A stretch of 48,384 nt of DNA from contig PBSO01000017.1 in NCBI GenBank assembly GCA_002726275.1, forward strand, positions 7,583-55,966. The letters are read 5' to 3'. The stretch is from Methanobacteriota archaeon (lineage in GTDB: Archaea > Thermoplasmatota > Poseidoniia > Poseidoniales > Thalassarchaeaceae). The translations under genes were made by a program, and so were the position numbers. Positions 17,289 to 28,254 of the stretch are shown here, piece by piece. The notes beneath the pieces are model-generated. The model ran no database searches. It was not told the DNA's origin and saw only the letters and a program-made list of their open reading frames with translations. Every line of letters starts with the position of its first letter. The first letter of the stretch is position 1.

Positions 17289-18263
17289 GTGACTTCACCG
17301 CGGGTACTACTAACGGGTTTCGAGCCCTTTTCAGGTAGGGGATTCAATGTTTCAGAATCCGTGGCAAGGAAAATCGATGCATCCGGAATCCATGGAGTGG
17401 AAATTTCAACTATTATCCTCAGTGTGGACGAGGTCGGCTCAAGAAAATGCTCAGAATTAATCAGATCCGGGCACCACTTCGATGCGATAGTACACCTTGG
17501 ATTATCAGAGAGGAGGAGAAATATCAGCCTGGAATCACTAGCTAAGAATAATCTGGAGATGTCCAAGCCGGACAACTCTGGAAGAATGGTTTCTAACTCC
17601 TCAATTGCAGAAGATGCTCCGGATTTCATCAGAACTACGGCCTCCAAGCACATTCTGGATGAGGAGTTTGAACATGACGTTAGGGTGTTATGGAGCGAAG
17701 ATGCCGGTGGTTTCGTCTGCAATGAGACCTTTTTCAGAACCCTTGAGGCAATTGGAGAAAAAGAAACACCAGTACTCTTTGTTCATCTCCCAGTTCCAGA
17801 ACACATAGCAATTAGTGAACAAACTGACATAGTCTCAAGGATTATCAGGAGACTTGCAATAAAGCCCCACTACCGGGTCGTAGGTGCTTTGCTAACTGAC
17901 CCAGAGGGAAGGATGCTTGCATGCAGGAGGCCCCAAGGAGATGCATGGGCAGGTTGGTGGGAGTTCCCAGGTGGTAAGATAGAAGAAAATGAGTCCCAGG
18001 AACTCGCATTAATCAGGGAGATAGATGAGGAACTGGGGATTTTGGTGAGTCCAATTTCTTGTGTCGCAGAGATTTCACATGATTACGGGGATAGGGATGT
18101 GGACTTGTTCATATGGAAGTGTGAGCCGGTTGATCCTGCCTCGATAATCCTTTCAGAGCACGACAAGTCAGTATGGGTTGGGAAGGATGGTTTGATTGGG
18201 CTAAAATGGCTTCCCGCCGATCTTCCTTTGATAGAGGAATGGTCCTCATCTGGAATTCCCTAA
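17289..18263 (+). CDS. Fusion of pyroglutamyl-peptidase (C15-like) and Nudix hydrolase
   Basis: 324 residues from a GTG start. Residues 1-~185 match pyrrolidone carboxyl peptidase: 'VLLTGFEPFSG' at the N-terminus, the catalytic Glu82 in 'RRNISLESLAKN', Cys144 in 'EDAGGFVCN' and His166 in 'LFVHLP'. All three catalytic residues are present, so it should be able to remove N-terminal pyroglutamate. Residues ~195-324 are a Nudix domain of MutT/CTP-pyrophosphohydrolase type with 'AWAGWWEFPGGK' and a complete Nudix box from Gly228 (GGKIEENESQELALIREIDE, continuing ELG). That domain typically cleaves (oxidised) nucleoside triphosphates. The two are joined in frame without a stop. I do not know a described partner logic for this combination. 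Cytoplasmic. Converges with the UPF0201 gene. Confidence 0.88.
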   Translation: MTSPRVLLTGFEPFSGRGFNVSESVARKIDASGIHGVEISTIILSVDEVGSRKCSELIRSGHHFDAIVHLGLSERRRNISLESLAKNNLEMSKPDNSGRMVSNSSIAEDAPDFIRTTASKHILDEEFEHDVRVLWSEDAGGFVCNETFFRTLEAIGEKETPVLFVHLPVPEHIAISEQTDIVSRIIRRLAIKPHYRVVGALLTDPEGRMLACRRPQGDAWAGWWEFPGGKIEENESQELALIREIDEELGILVSPISCVAEISHDYGDRDVDLFIWKCEPVDPASIILSEHDKSVWVGKDGLIGLKWLPADLPLIEEWSSSGIP

Positions 18264-20833: not shown

Positions 20834-22972
20834 TCATTCCGATTCAAGACTCTGCCAATCGATTGCACTACGGGGCGCTACTGCTACAGGTTCGCCACCA
20901 ACCAAACCAGATAATTGGAATGTTAGGACACTGGGACTACCTTCTATTGACATTCGAATGAATGTTCTACTGCCGGATTCCAAAGTGTCTAGAAATATCT
21001 CATCACCGCGGAAGAGGTGTTTGGGGTAGACATTGTCAATCCCAACCAATGACCCCTCCGGAGAGTGGAATCTTATGGCGGCTAACTTCCAATCTTCAGG
21101 CCCAACCCTAATTCCAAGAATCAGTGAGCTGCCCATTTCTACTCCCCAGGCACACACTTCAATCTGATCAGTCATGTGCCTAATTACGGGTCTACCCCAT
21201 TCCGAAATTATGCCTGACCAGGGACTATCTCCAAGTTGATGGAGGGCAGATTCAACAACTCTCTCGTCTATCTCACTCTCAGAAATTTCTTTGGAGAGTC
21301 TCTCCCGAAGCCTCCTGAGCCTCCTCCTTTCGTGCGCTTCAATAATATCTGACCCCTTTGTACCCGAGAAAAGCCTCCTCCTTTCCCACCAAATAACAAC
21401 AGCCAGGGGGATGATCATGATGGCCCCGAGGAATATGTAGAGGTCATTGAAAAGGTAGGAAAGATCACTCAACTCGGCATCATCAGGGATATCTTCACCT
21501 GCATAAAACAGAGTGAATCCATATTCCACTTCAGCATCTGAGGAAGAGAGCCTCTCCACCCTTAGTGCATGCAAACCATTCGGAACGCTAATCATTGAAC
21601 CATTTGTGTAATTCAGGATATTCCAATTATTCTGATCGAGTGACTGGATCTGAAAACTCACCGGGGATGAGCCAACGTCCCTAAGGTATACTCTAGAGCC
21701 ATTCTCGTCTCCGATACTGAAGATGTGAACATCTACATTGTCTCCCGGGCCCAAAGTACCGGAAAGTTCCAATGGCCCCGGCAGGACATGTTCGTGATGA
21801 CCCCATGGCCCACTTTCCCCCCATATGTAGTCAGGTGCGTCTCCAATCATCTTTCCATCATTCATTGAATCTGACGAGATGTCGATATTCCAAGAAATGG
21901 CTACGCTCGAGCGAACTCTGAACTCCAAGGAATATGCGTCTGCCGGAGTAACAATTGACTCGGGGCAAGAATCAATTTCTTCTTCAATAAAATCGGAGCC
22001 ATTCACAGTTTGCACTAGTATGTCAATCAATACCTCTCCGATGAAGATGCAGTGCGGGGTTATTTCCATCTTAGAGCCGGCCTGCAGTAAAAGGGAATCG
22101 CCATCCATGTCGAATCCTGAAATATGTCCAGAATAAGGGCCGGAACCGAATGCTAAATGATCCCCATGGTCCCATTCCCCACTTAGCTCGCCACCTCCTG
22201 GGGCCTCTGCCTGGTCATCAAATCTTGACAGACTAATTTCATAGGGAGAATATCCAGAATCTGTTGGGTGGACAACTCTTAGCCAAAGCCTCGAGTCATT
22301 AGGATAGTCGAGAATTATTGGGAACTCACTTTCGCTCGACAATACTTCGATAAGAGACTTGGACTCAGCATTGCTCTCCCAAATTTCCAAATCAATTACT
22401 CCTCTCCCTCTGAAATCATCAATGACAACTATATCGCCATCATCCCCCTCAATTCTGAATGAGTCCATGTCTTCCTCATCTTCCAAGGATCCAACGAAGA
22501 TTACTGCAGTACTGCCGAAATCCAGTGAATTACACCTGCTAAGCTGACAAATGGAGGTGGCATCTAATTCAAAAGAACCATCTTGGTTGCCAGGCAATGG
22601 GACGATTTCTTCCAGATCATCAGTTTCCACTAATGACTCTTCTAACGGAAGAATGGTGTCGAACATTATGTTTGCAATTCCCACTCCCTCATCTGCGTTC
22701 ACTTTCCATGATATGCCATTTTCGAACGGCCCAGACCATTGGACTTTGTGCTGGTCAGAGATTACCTGTTCCGACCCATCGTAAATGACGACCAATTCCA
22801 GTCCAGGGCAACTAACCTCCACACATTCAGCAACAAGCCATGCAGGACCCCCTCTTTCCAACGCTCCTTCGATAAGAACCACACCCCCCTCCTCTGCGAG
22901 AGCCGGATGGCCAACAAAGACAATTGAGGTGGCCAGAATCAACGATAGAAGTGCTGCCCTCGCCCCCTCCAT
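20834..22972 (-). CDS. Exported single-pass membrane protein with beta-rich ectodomain and cytoplasmic domain
   Basis: 712 residues. Signal peptide MEGARAALLSLILATSIVFVGHPALA. The ectodomain (about 30-500) is beta-rich and acidic, with repeated 'EDxDSFRI..DDGDIVVIDD'-like stretches reminiscent of bacterial pre-peptidase C-terminal domains ('LEIWESNAESKS', 'LWLRVVHPTDSGYSPYEISLS'). A transmembrane helix at about 505-525 (IFLGAIMIIPLAVVIWW) is followed by a basic helical segment (ERRRLRRLRERLSKEI). A ~150-residue cytoplasmic domain then ends the protein. This layout could couple an outside domain to an inside one, but I do not recognise the inner domain. Divergent from ArcS across 62 bp; converges on dnaJ. 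Confidence 0.72.
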   Translation of the reverse strand: MEGARAALLSLILATSIVFVGHPALAEEGGVVLIEGALERGGPAWLVAECVEVSCPGLELVVIYDGSEQVISDQHKVQWSGPFENGISWKVNADEGVGIANIMFDTILPLEESLVETDDLEEIVPLPGNQDGSFELDATSICQLSRCNSLDFGSTAVIFVGSLEDEEDMDSFRIEGDDGDIVVIDDFRGRGVIDLEIWESNAESKSLIEVLSSESEFPIILDYPNDSRLWLRVVHPTDSGYSPYEISLSRFDDQAEAPGGGELSGEWDHGDHLAFGSGPYSGHISGFDMDGDSLLLQAGSKMEITPHCIFIGEVLIDILVQTVNGSDFIEEEIDSCPESIVTPADAYSLEFRVRSSVAISWNIDISSDSMNDGKMIGDAPDYIWGESGPWGHHEHVLPGPLELSGTLGPGDNVDVHIFSIGDENGSRVYLRDVGSSPVSFQIQSLDQNNWNILNYTNGSMISVPNGLHALRVERLSSSDAEVEYGFTLFYAGEDIPDDAELSDLSYLFNDLYIFLGAIMIIPLAVVIWWERRRLFSGTKGSDIIEAHERRRLRRLRERLSKEISESEIDERVVESALHQLGDSPWSGIISEWGRPVIRHMTDQIEVCAWGVEMGSSLILGIRVGPEDWKLAAIRFHSPEGSLVGIDNVYPKHLFRGDEIFLDTLESGSRTFIRMSIEGSPSVLTFQLSGLVGGEPVAVAPRSAIDWQSLESE

Positions 22973-23034
22973 GCAATATCCGAGCAGTAATCAGTCTTAG
23001 AATCCTTCAAGCGAAGTTTCTCATTCGAGGCACT

Positions 23035-24816
23035 ATGGAGGGCAGGCCACTATCTCGGGATGTCATAGCTAGGCACCGTTCTGCAAGACTCTTTTCTCTG
23101 GGGGATAGGGGCAATCCTGCATCGTGGGCCCCTGCACTGGTAATGTCAGATAAAGACCCTGAATTGTCGGTTTCAATGGCCCCACTATGTTTCAAGAGGG
23201 ATAATTCAGAGTTTCCAGCCAAACTTACGATGACCACTCGAGAAAAGATATGTTTTCCATTTGACGGTATTGATGAATGGAGCGCTATAGAAGGACTGGT
23301 ATTGCCTTCCAGCCTCGACAAATCTGATTCTGGAAGTTTCGGTTCTGGAATAAACCTACTACCAGTTTCTTGGCAGTCGTTACATCATGACAATGCACTC
23401 TCCGAAGACTCTCTAGAACCATCAATCGTAATCCTCACGGACGCTCCTCAATTAGCCAGAAGTCGCGGCAAGTTAGCAAAATCATTGGACGTAATTAGGA
23501 GGAGATTCCCCTCTTCTCTAATATGGGCCCCGGGAATTTCTGGACCGGATAATTGCCATCTTCTTTCATGGCTAGGTGTCGATTTATTTGACCTCTCAAG
23601 ATCACGAAATGCATCTGCCTCGGGACTCATTCTATCAGCAGGTGGCCCCAGGGAACCTGAGGAAACTATGGGAGAGGGACATTGCATGGAAACTCAGATA
23701 GGACATTGGAAATCCGCTATTTCAAGCCTGAGGCAGTCGATTAGATCGGGAACCTTACGTGAGGAAGTGGAAAACTCCATCGGTTCCAGTCCCAGATCGG
23801 TGGAGAGGCTTAGGATTCATGACTCAATGATGAGTAACAACATTGGTCGCGCAGGACTTTCTAGCGTCGTGGGGAGGGGCAGGAGGGTGAGGTGCAACTC
23901 CCCGATAAGTCGCGATGACCCCCTCATACGTGATTGGAGGGAGAGGGTATCAGAATCCCACACTCCTCCAAAGCATCAGGAAGAAGTCCTCCTCCTACTT
24001 CCATGTTCAGCCACAAAGCCCTACCGACTCTCCCCGAGTCACCACAGATTCCTGAAGAATGTCAGTAGTAATAGGATCCATCAGGTCATGGTAACCGCGC
24101 CACTTGGTTTAGTTCCTAGGGAGTTAGAGGACCTCTGGCCAGCAGCTCACTATGACATCCCGGTCACAGGAGACTGGGATGAAGACGAATTAATAATAAT
24201 CAGGAATATGGTGGGGAATCTTGTTGAGAGAGTGGGATACAAGCACGTGATAAACCACTCCGGACTGGAAGTCAAAGTTGATGGTACGAATGTCCATGAC
24301 ACTAGGGTGGGCGGTACAGCCGGCTCCGAACAGTCTTTGTCTAGGCTCCAGCAAACCACCAAAAATCTAGCCTCATCACTTGGTTTGGAAGATTTCCGAC
24401 AATCCGATGAGCGACTAGGTGTTATGGAGTCAAGATCTAGGTTCATTCATGGTTCTGATGAATGGCTCAAGGGCTCAGTCGTCTCTGGGAGGCCCCCAAT
24501 TCTGACAATTACAAAATCGGGAGAGCAACTAGCAAGGTGGAACCCACGTGATGGCCGATTCGCTCTTTCCAAGAAGGCCCTTCCACTAATGGAAAGTAAC
24601 GACTCGATGCCAAGGGCGCATCTGAAATCTAATCACAAATGGGTCGGCGACTTGTTTCCCACGAATGTCGAACACTTCCAGGGAGATATCAGAGTTGGCG
24701 ATGAGATATTGGTCTATCAGGATGGGGGACTGGTCGGTTCGGCAAGAGCAGTTGCCCCTCAATGGGAATGGCCTCTCGGACCGGGAAGGCTAGCGCGTAC
24801 GAGGCACAGACTCTGA
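23035..24816 (+). CDS. arcS: Archaeosine synthase (ArcS/TgtA2-like)
   Basis: 593 residues. The start at ATG 23035 (MEGRPLSRDV) is preferred: the open frame extends further upstream, but only through sequence overlapping the divergent gene's 5' end. The diagnostic motif PCSATKPYRLSPSH (residues ~322-335) is the conserved core of archaeosine synthase. That enzyme works after TGT, turning preQ0 at tRNA position 15 into archaeosine (G+). The N-terminal half is a diverged TGT-like domain ('VDLFDLSRSRNAS', 'WSAIEGLVLPSS'). The last ~80 residues form a PUA RNA-binding domain ('FPTNVEHFQGDIRVGDEILVYQ'). An amidotransferase or radical-SAM partner is not seen here. Confidence 0.9.
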   Translation: MEGRPLSRDVIARHRSARLFSLGDRGNPASWAPALVMSDKDPELSVSMAPLCFKRDNSEFPAKLTMTTREKICFPFDGIDEWSAIEGLVLPSSLDKSDSGSFGSGINLLPVSWQSLHHDNALSEDSLEPSIVILTDAPQLARSRGKLAKSLDVIRRRFPSSLIWAPGISGPDNCHLLSWLGVDLFDLSRSRNASASGLILSAGGPREPEETMGEGHCMETQIGHWKSAISSLRQSIRSGTLREEVENSIGSSPRSVERLRIHDSMMSNNIGRAGLSSVVGRGRRVRCNSPISRDDPLIRDWRERVSESHTPPKHQEEVLLLLPCSATKPYRLSPSHHRFLKNVSSNRIHQVMVTAPLGLVPRELEDLWPAAHYDIPVTGDWDEDELIIIRNMVGNLVERVGYKHVINHSGLEVKVDGTNVHDTRVGGTAGSEQSLSRLQQTTKNLASSLGLEDFRQSDERLGVMESRSRFIHGSDEWLKGSVVSGRPPILTITKSGEQLARWNPRDGRFALSKKALPLMESNDSMPRAHLKSNHKWVGDLFPTNVEHFQGDIRVGDEILVYQDGGLVGSARAVAPQWEWPLGPGRLARTRHRL

Positions 24817-24888: not shown

Positions 24889-25344
24889 ATGGCACGTATG
24901 CACAGTAAGGGAAAGGGTGCGAGTGGGTCATCTAGGCCCAATTCGGAAAACCCTCCAGAATGGTCAGAGACGGACAAGAAGGTAATTGAAGAACTAGTTG
25001 TCAATATGGCCAAAGAGGGGCATTCGACTGCCATGATAGGAATGACCCTAAGGGATCAACATGCAGTTCCGGATGTCCGCCTAGCAACTGGAGAGAGAAT
25101 TTCCCAGATTCTCTCAAGGAATGGAATTTCTCCCAAGTACCCAGAGGATATGATGAATCTGATGAGAAGGGCACTCGGTTTGATTGATCACCTAAATTCA
25201 AACTCAAAGGACCTTCACAACCGTCGCCAGTTGGAGCTCTGTGAGTCTAAGATTAGGCGTCTGTCAGTGTATTACAAGGAAGCTGGGAAGCTTGAAAGTG
25301 ATTGGCAGTACAAGAGGGACCAGCTCAGGCTCATGGTCGAATAA
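24889..25344 (+). CDS. rps15: 30S ribosomal protein S15 (uS15)
   Basis: 151 residues, the archaeal/eukaryotic length: bacterial S15 is about 90, and the archaeal form has an N-terminal extension. 'MARMHSKGKGASGSSRP' is the standard archaeal opening, followed by 'VIEELVVNMAKEGHSTAMIGMTLRDQHAVPDVR'. The C-terminal helical hairpin carries the conserved 'HLNSNSKDLHNRRQLELCESKIRRL'. It binds 16S rRNA in the central domain/platform of the small subunit. The start has a GGAGGAG site at 5-nt spacing. The DHH/RecJ-like gene follows after 41 bp, an arrangement recurrent in euryarchaea. Confidence 0.97.
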   Translation: MARMHSKGKGASGSSRPNSENPPEWSETDKKVIEELVVNMAKEGHSTAMIGMTLRDQHAVPDVRLATGERISQILSRNGISPKYPEDMMNLMRRALGLIDHLNSNSKDLHNRRQLELCESKIRRLSVYYKEAGKLESDWQYKRDQLRLMVE

Positions 25345-25385: not shown

Positions 25386-26276
25386 ATGCGTGCACTCGCC
25401 AACGAGGAAATCTTCTCCTCCGTATCGGAAATTTTGCACTCAGCAGCTTCAATGGTTCGCTCTGGTGAGAGGGTAACTCTCGCCACCACGGAAGCCACGC
25501 TCCCCTCCTCACTTGCCATAGCGCCCATTGAGGCCGCGCTTTTGGATGAGGGACTCCCTTACAGGAGGAGTATCTCAGATGGGAGAAAGTCAGGATCAAT
25601 TAATCCCGAATCTACATTCATCATTATTGATATGGATAATGATGGCATCACTATTTCTGAGAAGGGTGCTCGTGGATTGCATATTGGGGCGAACGTACCA
25701 ACTATCGCCCATATGGGCCAACATGCAAAGGCTCGAAATGGAATATTGACACCCACTGCAATTTCACACGCCCTAGCTCAACTCATTTCGCCCTCTGGAA
25801 AACGAGTCAGAAGGATGAGGCCGTGGGCGATTTCAGGAAATTGGATTAGCCCCTCAATGGATGCAACATATGATCCAGTATATACTTCATTGAGGGATTT
25901 TCTAGAAGAAGAAGGGACAATCTCCGTAGTCCCCTTTCCCGAGGTCCCAGATCCAGACCCTCAATCCCGGCCATGGGTCAATAGTGACGATCTTGATGCT
26001 GTTAGGGAAAGATGGGCCGAACTTGATGCGGAAGGAAGGGCAAGAGCGATTTCACACCTGATGAGGCCTGGATTATTTTCTTCAGCGCCATCGACCGCAC
26101 GTTTCGAGGAATTGGGATGGCATTGTATTCTAGCACCAACTTGGGAGCGTGATTTGGCTGGGCAAATAAGGGAAGCATCATCAATATGGGGTACGAATAA
26201 CAGAGAGGACGCAGCGGGCAAACTAATTGATAGTCTGATTTCCAATGGTCAAATCCGAACTATTCAATCCGAATAA
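25386..26276 (+). CDS. Degenerate DHH/RecJ-like protein (GAN/Cdc45-like candidate)
   Basis: 296 residues from ATG 25386. The order of segments resembles the N-terminal part of an archaeal RecJ/DHH protein: an N-terminal helix, a strand 'RVTLATTEATLPSSLAIAPIEAALLDEGLPYRRSI', then 'STFIIIDMDNDG'. The canonical 'D-A-D-G' and DHH metal ligands are not there: the first is replaced by TEATLP and no DHH triad follows. The protein is also shorter than RecJ nucleases (usually over 400 aa). Its place directly after rps15, where many euryarchaea carry a RecJ/GAN gene, supports the assignment. A catalytically dead paralogue that serves as a replisome (GINS-associated, Cdc45-like) subunit is the best hypothesis. 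Overlaps the converging gene by 17 bp. An unrelated protein remains possible. Confidence 0.5.
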   Translation: MRALANEEIFSSVSEILHSAASMVRSGERVTLATTEATLPSSLAIAPIEAALLDEGLPYRRSISDGRKSGSINPESTFIIIDMDNDGITISEKGARGLHIGANVPTIAHMGQHAKARNGILTPTAISHALAQLISPSGKRVRRMRPWAISGNWISPSMDATYDPVYTSLRDFLEEEGTISVVPFPEVPDPDPQSRPWVNSDDLDAVRERWAELDAEGRARAISHLMRPGLFSSAPSTARFEELGWHCILAPTWERDLAGQIREASSIWGTNNREDAAGKLIDSLISNGQIRTIQSE

Positions 26277-28254
26277 CACTGTCACATTCAGAGCATGAAA
26301 TCCTTAGGGGCCTCACATCCGAATCAACTGAGATAGAATTGCCACAGGATGGACAACTCACCCTTCCTCCGCCCTTGCTGCTATCTCCTGACCTATCCTC
26401 CTTGGGTGACAGCAATGATATTGGGAAAACTAGTAGAATACTGGAAAAAACCACTCCTAGGACCATCTGCATCGGCAGCCCTAGGAAATATATCGCAAAT
26501 GACAGTAGCCCCATAGTAGCGACAGTTACCATTGTGGGAAACCTCGATCTCCTCCTAGTCATATTAAGTCCAATGCCGATTGCAGCGCAGAGTGCTAAAA
26601 CCATAATTCCAGAGCCGACCAGGACGCTGAACATCGGGTTTCCCGTTGGGGTAAAGGTAATTCTGAAATCTAACTCTAGGTCAAGCTCCTCCTGATTTAC
26701 TGAAATTGTCTCTTGCACAATCCACCTCCTATGAGAGTACTCCAGGCCTTCTGACGAGACCACCCCTATGTCATGAAGCATTGAACCGGTTAGCTCAACA
26801 CTCAGGCTTATGGATGTCCAGTATTCCTCCAAAGAAGGGCGGACGAAGTCCTCTACCAATAATTGACGCTCCCCTTCGCCCATCAAATAAGATGTCGAGA
26901 TTGTAATAACTATGGAATCTGAGCTGAACCCTCTTGTTCCGCCCATGTCGATGTTAATGTCAGTGGGGCCCAAGTCTATCGGATCGACCCCTAGAATCGA
27001 CTCTGACTCTATGAACATCCCATTGGAAAGGAAAGATCGCATGTCCGAAGTCGAACCTGTGAGATACCCCGTTAGAGCAACCAGTTCAGAATCATCCACC
27101 ATCCCATTGTTGTAGTCAGACTGTGGTATTGAGCTAGAGTAAGACTTCAGGTTTCTCCACCAACTACTGGATTCTAGACTAGAATTCCCTATGTTGTCTA
27201 ACCCCCACCTCATCCATTGAGACATCGAACCTCCAAATTCAATTGTTACATCCTTTTCCATTCTGTCTCCCTTCCAATCGGCAGAAACCGACAATGACAG
27301 ATCAGTTCCACCTGTCCTCAATGGCTCGTTAGCCGGATACCATGTCCCGCTTCCTCCGCCATCTTCCCCCACGGTAATGGTGTGTGTCATATTTGCTTCA
27401 ATTACGAGCCCTTCCTGTGGCTCAAGGTGGAAGTCAACACGGAATGTCCCTCCCTCCGTACCCTCGGGTATGCTCCAAACAAATGTGACTTCGACACCAT
27501 CCTCTACAGGGGTGGCAACCGGCTTCTCACTTACTGCAGAGTTTTGCACAGTGATCCCTCCGGACGAGGCAGTCCACATCCTGTCTTCAAAACCAGAAGA
27601 AAGAAGAATCGGGAAATATACTAGTGTCCCACTCACACTGGCATCCCTCATATGAATTTCAACCAGGGGTAGCTTCACATTGATACTAGATTTCTTGTCA
27701 TCAGAGCCCCAAACAAAGGTCACACCAGCGTTATCACCCGGTTGATTGAAACCAAGTAGTTGGACAATCAATGTGATTTCCACCAAGTCCCCCTCATTGA
27801 CCTCACCCGATTCAACATCAACCATGATCTGGATATCGCCTTCACCGGTTATGTACGGATTGAGTCCATCAGAACTTCCTTGGTAGAATGAACCTCCAAT
27901 TCTGACCTCTAGAGTTGCATTGATATTCACCCCCACTGCACCTTGAACCTCATATGGCATTGAGAACTCCCATGTAGAGTCTGGATGGCTTCCTTCAGAG
28001 CCCCAAACTACCCCCCACTTTCCAACTTCTATGGGCTGGAAAACTTGAGTCACCAATGTGGAGTCAGTTTCATCAAGATCGGAATCAAAGGGGGACAGAG
28101 TCCCGATGTCTGCCTCACCGAGCAAATACAACTCGAAGCCACCAGAGTTACAGCAGGCCGTCTGCTGTCCCGAGACTTGCGTGATGGGAGACAGTATGGT
28201 CAAAACCAAAGTCACACACAGAAGAAATGCATGACGACTCCGCCCCTCGTCCAT
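26260..28254 (-). CDS. Exported membrane protein with multi-pass C-terminus and cytoplasmic zinc ribbon
   Basis: 664 residues. Signal peptide (MDEGRSRHAFLLCVTLVLTILSPITQVSG), then a large beta-rich ectodomain with Ig-like stretches ('VEITLIVQLLGFNQPGDNAGVTF', 'GGTFRVDFHLEPQEG'). Three or so transmembrane helices at about 525-605 ('VLVGSGIMVLALCAAIGIGL', 'MVTVATMGLLSFAIYFLGL', 'MVLGVVFSSILLVFPISLL') are followed by a C-terminal zinc ribbon with two CxxC pairs (CPSCGN...CSECDS). An odd number of helices after the ectodomain would put the ribbon in the cytoplasm. Function unknown. A gtttag element about 22-30 nt upstream of the start could be its TATA box. It overlaps the DHH-like gene at the 3' end. 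Confidence 0.72.
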   Translation of the reverse strand: MDEGRSRHAFLLCVTLVLTILSPITQVSGQQTACCNSGGFELYLLGEADIGTLSPFDSDLDETDSTLVTQVFQPIEVGKWGVVWGSEGSHPDSTWEFSMPYEVQGAVGVNINATLEVRIGGSFYQGSSDGLNPYITGEGDIQIMVDVESGEVNEGDLVEITLIVQLLGFNQPGDNAGVTFVWGSDDKKSSINVKLPLVEIHMRDASVSGTLVYFPILLSSGFEDRMWTASSGGITVQNSAVSEKPVATPVEDGVEVTFVWSIPEGTEGGTFRVDFHLEPQEGLVIEANMTHTITVGEDGGGSGTWYPANEPLRTGGTDLSLSVSADWKGDRMEKDVTIEFGGSMSQWMRWGLDNIGNSSLESSSWWRNLKSYSSSIPQSDYNNGMVDDSELVALTGYLTGSTSDMRSFLSNGMFIESESILGVDPIDLGPTDINIDMGGTRGFSSDSIVITISTSYLMGEGERQLLVEDFVRPSLEEYWTSISLSVELTGSMLHDIGVVSSEGLEYSHRRWIVQETISVNQEELDLELDFRITFTPTGNPMFSVLVGSGIMVLALCAAIGIGLNMTRRRSRFPTMVTVATMGLLSFAIYFLGLPMQMVLGVVFSSILLVFPISLLSPKEDRSGDSSKGGGRVSCPSCGNSISVDSDVRPLRISCSECDSVIRIE

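Follow-up and report, generated by a model that had tools for sequence, protein, structure and literature searches.

The window analysed here, a 48,384-nucleotide stretch of a genome from the Poseidoniales (marine group II), contains a short gene directly downstream of the gene for ribosomal protein uS15, a position referred to below as the slot.

24889..25344, forward strand: rps15 (uS15), which marks the GAN slot; Pfam PF08069 (2e-24) and PF00312 (1.5e-12), NCBIfam PRK08561.1 (6.4e-59).
25386..26276, forward strand: whole gene, including the stop codon, for a 296-aa degenerate GAN/RecJ-like protein; best Foldseek match 5ght.

The slot gene begins with an ATG at 25386, 41 nt past the end of rps15, and its stop codon ends at 26276. 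In all 78 loci with a readable upstream gene, rps15 lies upstream on the same strand, 37–85 nt from the slot gene. The first-pass annotation had placed the gene in the rps15-linked slot of GAN, the GINS-associated RecJ nuclease, and had called its product short; both points hold, as intact GANs of the sister order have 441–447 aa. A DUF5591 protein is encoded 5′ of rps15 (22924–24816, forward strand) and keeps the same company in 75 of 80 loci. On the 3′ side, a convergent gene (26260–28254, reverse strand), conserved in 74 of 77 loci, encodes a protein with a signal-like start, a membrane stretch, and a zinc-ribbon-like C-terminal end. Elsewhere in the window, a single ORF (17289–18263, forward strand) appears by eye to combine a pyroglutamyl-peptidase-like N-terminal half with a NUDIX/MutT-like C-terminal half.

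The slot protein matches no Pfam or NCBIfam family, and the CDC45 profile PF02724 has no match in the window protein (P0001) or in the 53 members of alignment A2. An AlphaFold2 model built on 53 orthologues has a mean pLDDT of 92.9 and a pTM of 0.91, and its best 44 PDB matches in Foldseek are all GAN, RecJ, or Cdc45. The best match is GAN of T. kodakarensis (5ght, 2.6e-7, probability 1.00), followed by P. furiosus RecJ (8.8e-7), M. thermautotrophicus RecJ-Cdc45 (1.5e-6), M. jannaschii RecJ2 (3.1e-5), bacterial RecJ (1.5e-4), Entamoeba Cdc45 (5.2e-4), and human CMG (1.7e-3); TM-scores are moderate, at about 0.5, with rmsd values of 7–9 Å. The first unrelated protein appears at 0.048 and a CID-less NrnA-like/RecJ-like DHH protein at 0.11, and this ranking therefore favours CID-bearing GAN over its CID-less relatives. 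Structure prediction thus returned the DHH/RecJ-like fold that the first-pass annotation had expected, and not the unrelated fold that it had named as evidence against itself.

As a yardstick for the domain anatomy, we used a structural model of the GAN from a sister-order genome (L134; best Foldseek match 7bih, 1e-39) and read the correspondence from the order of helices (H) and strands (E) rather than from a superposition. With GAN residues before the slash and window-protein residues after it, the first part runs H3-16/H14-24, E21-26/E30-34, H29-44/H39-55, E49-54/E59-63, H59-68/missing, E72-76/E77-81, H80-88/missing, E92-97/E104-110, and E109-113/E116-121. It continues with H127-138/H123-134, H140-155/H139-154, H165-176/H164-176, E181-186/E180-182, H212-221/H200-212, H235-251/H215-231, H256-262/H237-244, E263-268/E247-249, H276-288/H257-270, and H292-299/H273-287. 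The second of the two missing helices is replaced by a small beta pair (88–91, 97–100).

25386..25946, forward strand: DHH-like domain, residues 1–187, from secondary-structure order against the modelled sister-order GAN; two helices of the GAN DHH domain are missing.
25983..26246, forward strand: CID-like helical domain, residues 200–287, with helices matching GAN 212–299.

Beyond GAN residue ~300 the agreement stops. The long stem helix (303–329) and the DHHA1 domain of GAN have no counterpart in the window protein, which ends soon after the CID-like domain. Because the element order matches only to this point, we read the stem helix and DHHA1 as deleted, along with the loss of the DHH active site. 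A blind run of the DHH_CID profile (PF21763) over 116 genomes gave sub-threshold matches in 30, and in six of these, from two genera, a match lay within the slot gene, around residues 178–240. Cdc45 contacts GINS mainly through its DHH domain and MCM through its CID, GAN is alike, and the active-site groove lies between DHH and DHHA1 (Pellegrini, PMC5484177). The retained part of the slot protein would thus be the contact half.

The GAN motifs HxDxDG, GD[KR]Q, and GGGH were found in all 28 GANs and in none of 101 slot-family members. The string DHH occurs in only two of these members, neither copy at the motif position. The places where the motifs would be expected are as follows.

25473..25499, forward strand: place of motif I (GAN HxDxDG), residues 30–38, VTLATTEAT; ligands lost, by equivalence of strand 1 and helix 1.
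25629..25631, forward strand: D82, a possible remnant of the motif II Asp; it follows strand 77–81, as GAN D77 follows strand 72–76.
25707..25724, forward strand: approximate place of the DHH motif, residues 108–113, AHMGQH; motif lost, following strand 104–110.
25836..25844, forward strand: place of motif IV (GAN GD[KR]Q), G151-N152-W153, from invariant columns of A2 and helix equivalence.

GAN H26, D28, and D30 correspond approximately to T34, E36, and T38 of the window protein, and the motif IV Asp to N152, within a GNW that all 53 orthologues of A2 share; D82 is not conserved across the slot family. Because a direct MAFFT alignment of the slot family with GAN misaligned the middle, these equivalences were drawn from the order of secondary-structure elements, and those near motifs II and III are provisional. 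The missing DADG-type and DHH ligands, noted at the outset for this one protein, are a property of the family, whose sequences predict a catalytically inactive DHH domain, as in Cdc45.

The sister order (f3), probably marine group III, retains the nuclease at the same locus. In genera g22 and g24, the gene immediately 3′ of rps15 encodes an intact GAN (447 aa in L132, 441 aa in L134, and 447 aa in L137), and the L134 protein matches Pfam DHH (3.6e-10) and DHHA1 (4.3e-14). A profile of 28 intact GANs recovered a full-length GAN beside rps15 in all seven g22/g24 genomes tested, which makes the slot homologous between the two orders. The same profile found no GAN in 11 genomes of the MGIII-like genus g23 or in 10 Poseidoniales; the absence from g23, where a methyltransferase-like gene directly follows rps15 (L133, L135, and L136), points to an independent GAN loss. 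Queried with the L134 GAN, the rest of the phylum gave matches up to 1e-94, and Poseidoniales only matches of 1e-4 to 1e-6 (best 2.9e-6); the DHH proteins recognised in that order are members of different families. Since GAN remains intact at this locus in the sister order, the inactivation is separate from the known cases, in agreement with the independent route that the first-pass annotation had suggested.

The same annotation had called for a check for a second, active RecJ, and here the outcome was mixed: a GAN-type nuclease was found in no Poseidoniales genome searched (the genome of the window is 87% complete, and the absence extends over many genomes), yet an intact protein of the wider DHH superfamily is present. 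A PF01368 search of the window's genome (G000) returned zero DHH proteins, but the reading of a genome without any DHH protein proved wrong when a DHHA1 search (PF02272) revealed, besides a 975-aa ORF of AlaRS size, a divergent PggH-like DHH/DHHA1 protein of 335 aa (G000:C15, L232, 656–1660, forward strand). Its motifs are intact (TDSDLDG, CDLP, IDHHQ, and DGGGHANACG), and among PDB entries PggH alone is a convincing relative (7d62, 1.2e-12). It also occurs in seven of eight Poseidoniales relatives whose matching region was read. By family, it is predicted to be a small-substrate DHH/DHHA1 enzyme and not a GAN. Longer DHH proteins of other genera, examined in case they were GANs that had escaped recognition, proved to be NrnA-like or, by eye, equipped with an N-terminal Rossmann-like part, and the weak Poseidoniales matches to the GAN query also spoke against them.

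Traces of GAN ancestry survive in the sequences of one branch. Compared with GAN by hhalign, the window's own family is not significant (E 0.12), and an all-family slot profile does not score above shuffles. Erosion has gone less far in f2, the other family of the order, which is the sole branch to give a GAN profile signal. Its orthologue L174 reads LMAPADLDGILALSQLEASFLD where GAN reads, e.g., ISHYDADGITSAAIICTALHR (L149), and IIHIDPF at the site where GAN reads IIFSDMG; f2 orthologues, L174 among them, keep motif I remnants such as APADLDG. A profile of 20 f2 and early-branching sequences (L170–L189) is colinear with GAN over 219 columns with a score of 32.7, above all 300 shuffles (maxima of 32.4 for 150 column shuffles and 26.7 for 150 block shuffles); a repeat of the comparison scored 30.3. 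A profile search against PDB sequences yielded nothing beyond chance matches, such as MthK. Homology of the slot protein to GAN, and its inactivation, are well supported.

Orthologues of the slot gene are present in 57 of 60 relatives. At E ≤ 1, 120 of the 146 genomes searched in the class have a match, and these belong to the two families of Poseidoniales, apart from one weak sister-order match (E 0.011) that was not counted as real. The gene is found in nearly all Poseidoniales outside genus g10. In the four g10 genomes (L128, L129, L130, and L131) it is absent: rps15 lies within about 15 nt of the next gene, a convergent one of 660 aa, with no gene or room between them. Genus g10 has lost the slot gene cleanly and outright. 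With this loss and that of GAN in g23, the slot protein is evidently dispensable in parts of the class. Where present, it has dN/dS values of 0.03–0.2 for many pairs of close orthologues and 18 invariant columns over the 53 sequences of A2. The dN/dS values led us to reject a pseudogene and argue for a selected protein rather than a relic.

The genome of the window encodes MCM and a GINS51-like protein (G000:C37, L211, 1477–2379, forward strand) with a C-terminal B-domain-like piece. The best Pfam Sld5 match within the GINS51-like family has an E-value of 0.0046, short of the cut-off, and the member from this genome is too diverged for Sld5; since a GINS profile has no match in the PDB, the GINS51 assignment is tentative. 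Genus g10 retains the GINS51-like protein, so the slot protein is not required for GINS function in every relative.

We consider it likely that the slot protein derives from GAN and supports the helicase by bridging GINS51 and MCM, with no catalysis of its own. The slot gene would descend from an rps15-linked GAN whose DHH active site would have decayed in the Poseidoniales ancestor; deletion of the stem helix and of DHHA1 in that ancestor would have left a DHH-like domain and, C-terminal to it, a CID-like helical domain. The DHH-like part may then contact the C-terminal domain of GINS51 and the CID-like part MCM, as the DHH domain of GAN and Cdc45 does with GINS51/Psf1 and their CID with MCM. 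Such a bridge would not cut DNA and would lack the share of the single-strand groove that DHHA1 provides. We infer the binding of GINS and MCM, and with it a role in replication. A broader version is tentative and in our judgement somewhat doubtful: Poseidoniales may have a CMG-type helicase whose Cdc45/GAN subunit is cut down to two partner-binding modules, a subunit gone altogether in g10, as GAN is in g23. If true, archaeal replication can drop the DNA-handling half first and then the whole Cdc45-type subunit.

A GAN-derived protein could also have left the replisome for a new role, perhaps in connection with uS15 and translation, with its gene still in the rps15 operon. We regard this as unlikely, though it accounts for the tight linkage to rps15 at every readable locus, for the clean loss in g10 while the GINS51-like protein stays, and for a former active-site face that carries a new invariant set (GNW and YDP) beyond mere decay. 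The linkage, however, is ancient and is shared by GANs that are active, both in the sister order and in other archaea (PMC3307487), the two domains kept correspond to the contact parts for GINS and MCM, and no ribosome-binding motif was found in the slot protein. That the protein is a dispensable GAN relic in slow loss, with no definite present function, is very improbable: the losses in g10 and g23 and the domain already deleted fit such a course, but the purifying dN/dS values, the invariant columns, and the presence in nearly all Poseidoniales outside g10 run against it. Least probable is an unrelated protein with a chance DHH resemblance in its predicted fold, as the missing Pfam and NCBIfam matches and the non-significant hhalign result of the window's own family might allow, given that the 44 best PDB matches belong to one superfamily, an intact GAN occupies the same slot in the sister order, and the colinear profile signal exceeds 300 shuffles.

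The bridge reading bears on why Cdc45 retains a dead nuclease fold, and the slot protein seems to be a natural case of a step towards eukaryotic Cdc45. Within one class the series is complete, with GAN intact, GAN inactivated and lacking DHHA1, and GAN absent; these natural variants allow the roles of the nuclease site, DHHA1, and CID to be tested separately. A 2012 survey argued that DHHA1, and not the nuclease, is the essential part (PMC3307487); across the Poseidoniales, the half that survives is the opposite of the one deemed crucial there. No publication linking Poseidoniales with RecJ was found in the open-access literature, and both the DHHA1-less form and the Poseidoniales lineage of GAN inactivation appear to be new.

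Several known systems resemble the slot protein in part. GAN/RecJ (arCOG00427; 5GHT and the sister-order proteins of L134 and L140) shares the rps15 slot, the DHH fold, the best fold match, and, by predicted secondary structure, a putative CID-like domain, but the slot protein lacks its catalytic motifs, stem helix, and DHHA1 domain. The PggH-like protein (7d62; L232) belongs to the same DHH superfamily, yet it is a separate gene outside the slot, with intact motifs and a DHHA1 domain. The rps15-linked RecJ homologues of Halobacteria (arCOG00428) and Crenarchaeota (arCOG00432 and arCOG05692) share the neighbourhood and a DHH domain inactivated independently in each lineage (PMC3307487). By their descriptions the slot protein is set apart, since the crenarchaeal groups keep DHHA1 parts (arCOG05692 most of the core) and PMC3307487 does not report DHHA1 loss. 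Sulfolobus RecJdbd (arCOG05902) is likewise a reduced GAN-derived protein, but it is described as retaining the C-terminal portion of RecJ and having nothing equivalent to the nuclease domain, whereas the slot protein keeps DHH and CID and has dropped DHHA1. Cdc45 itself has an inactive DHH domain, a CID-like part, and a presumed scaffold role in common with the slot protein. The Cdc45 path proposed in the first-pass annotation thus stands as far as the loss of catalysis goes, and fails over DHHA1, which Cdc45 keeps. With no PF02724 match and a gene lost from a sister genus (g10), the slot protein is no plain copy of Cdc45.
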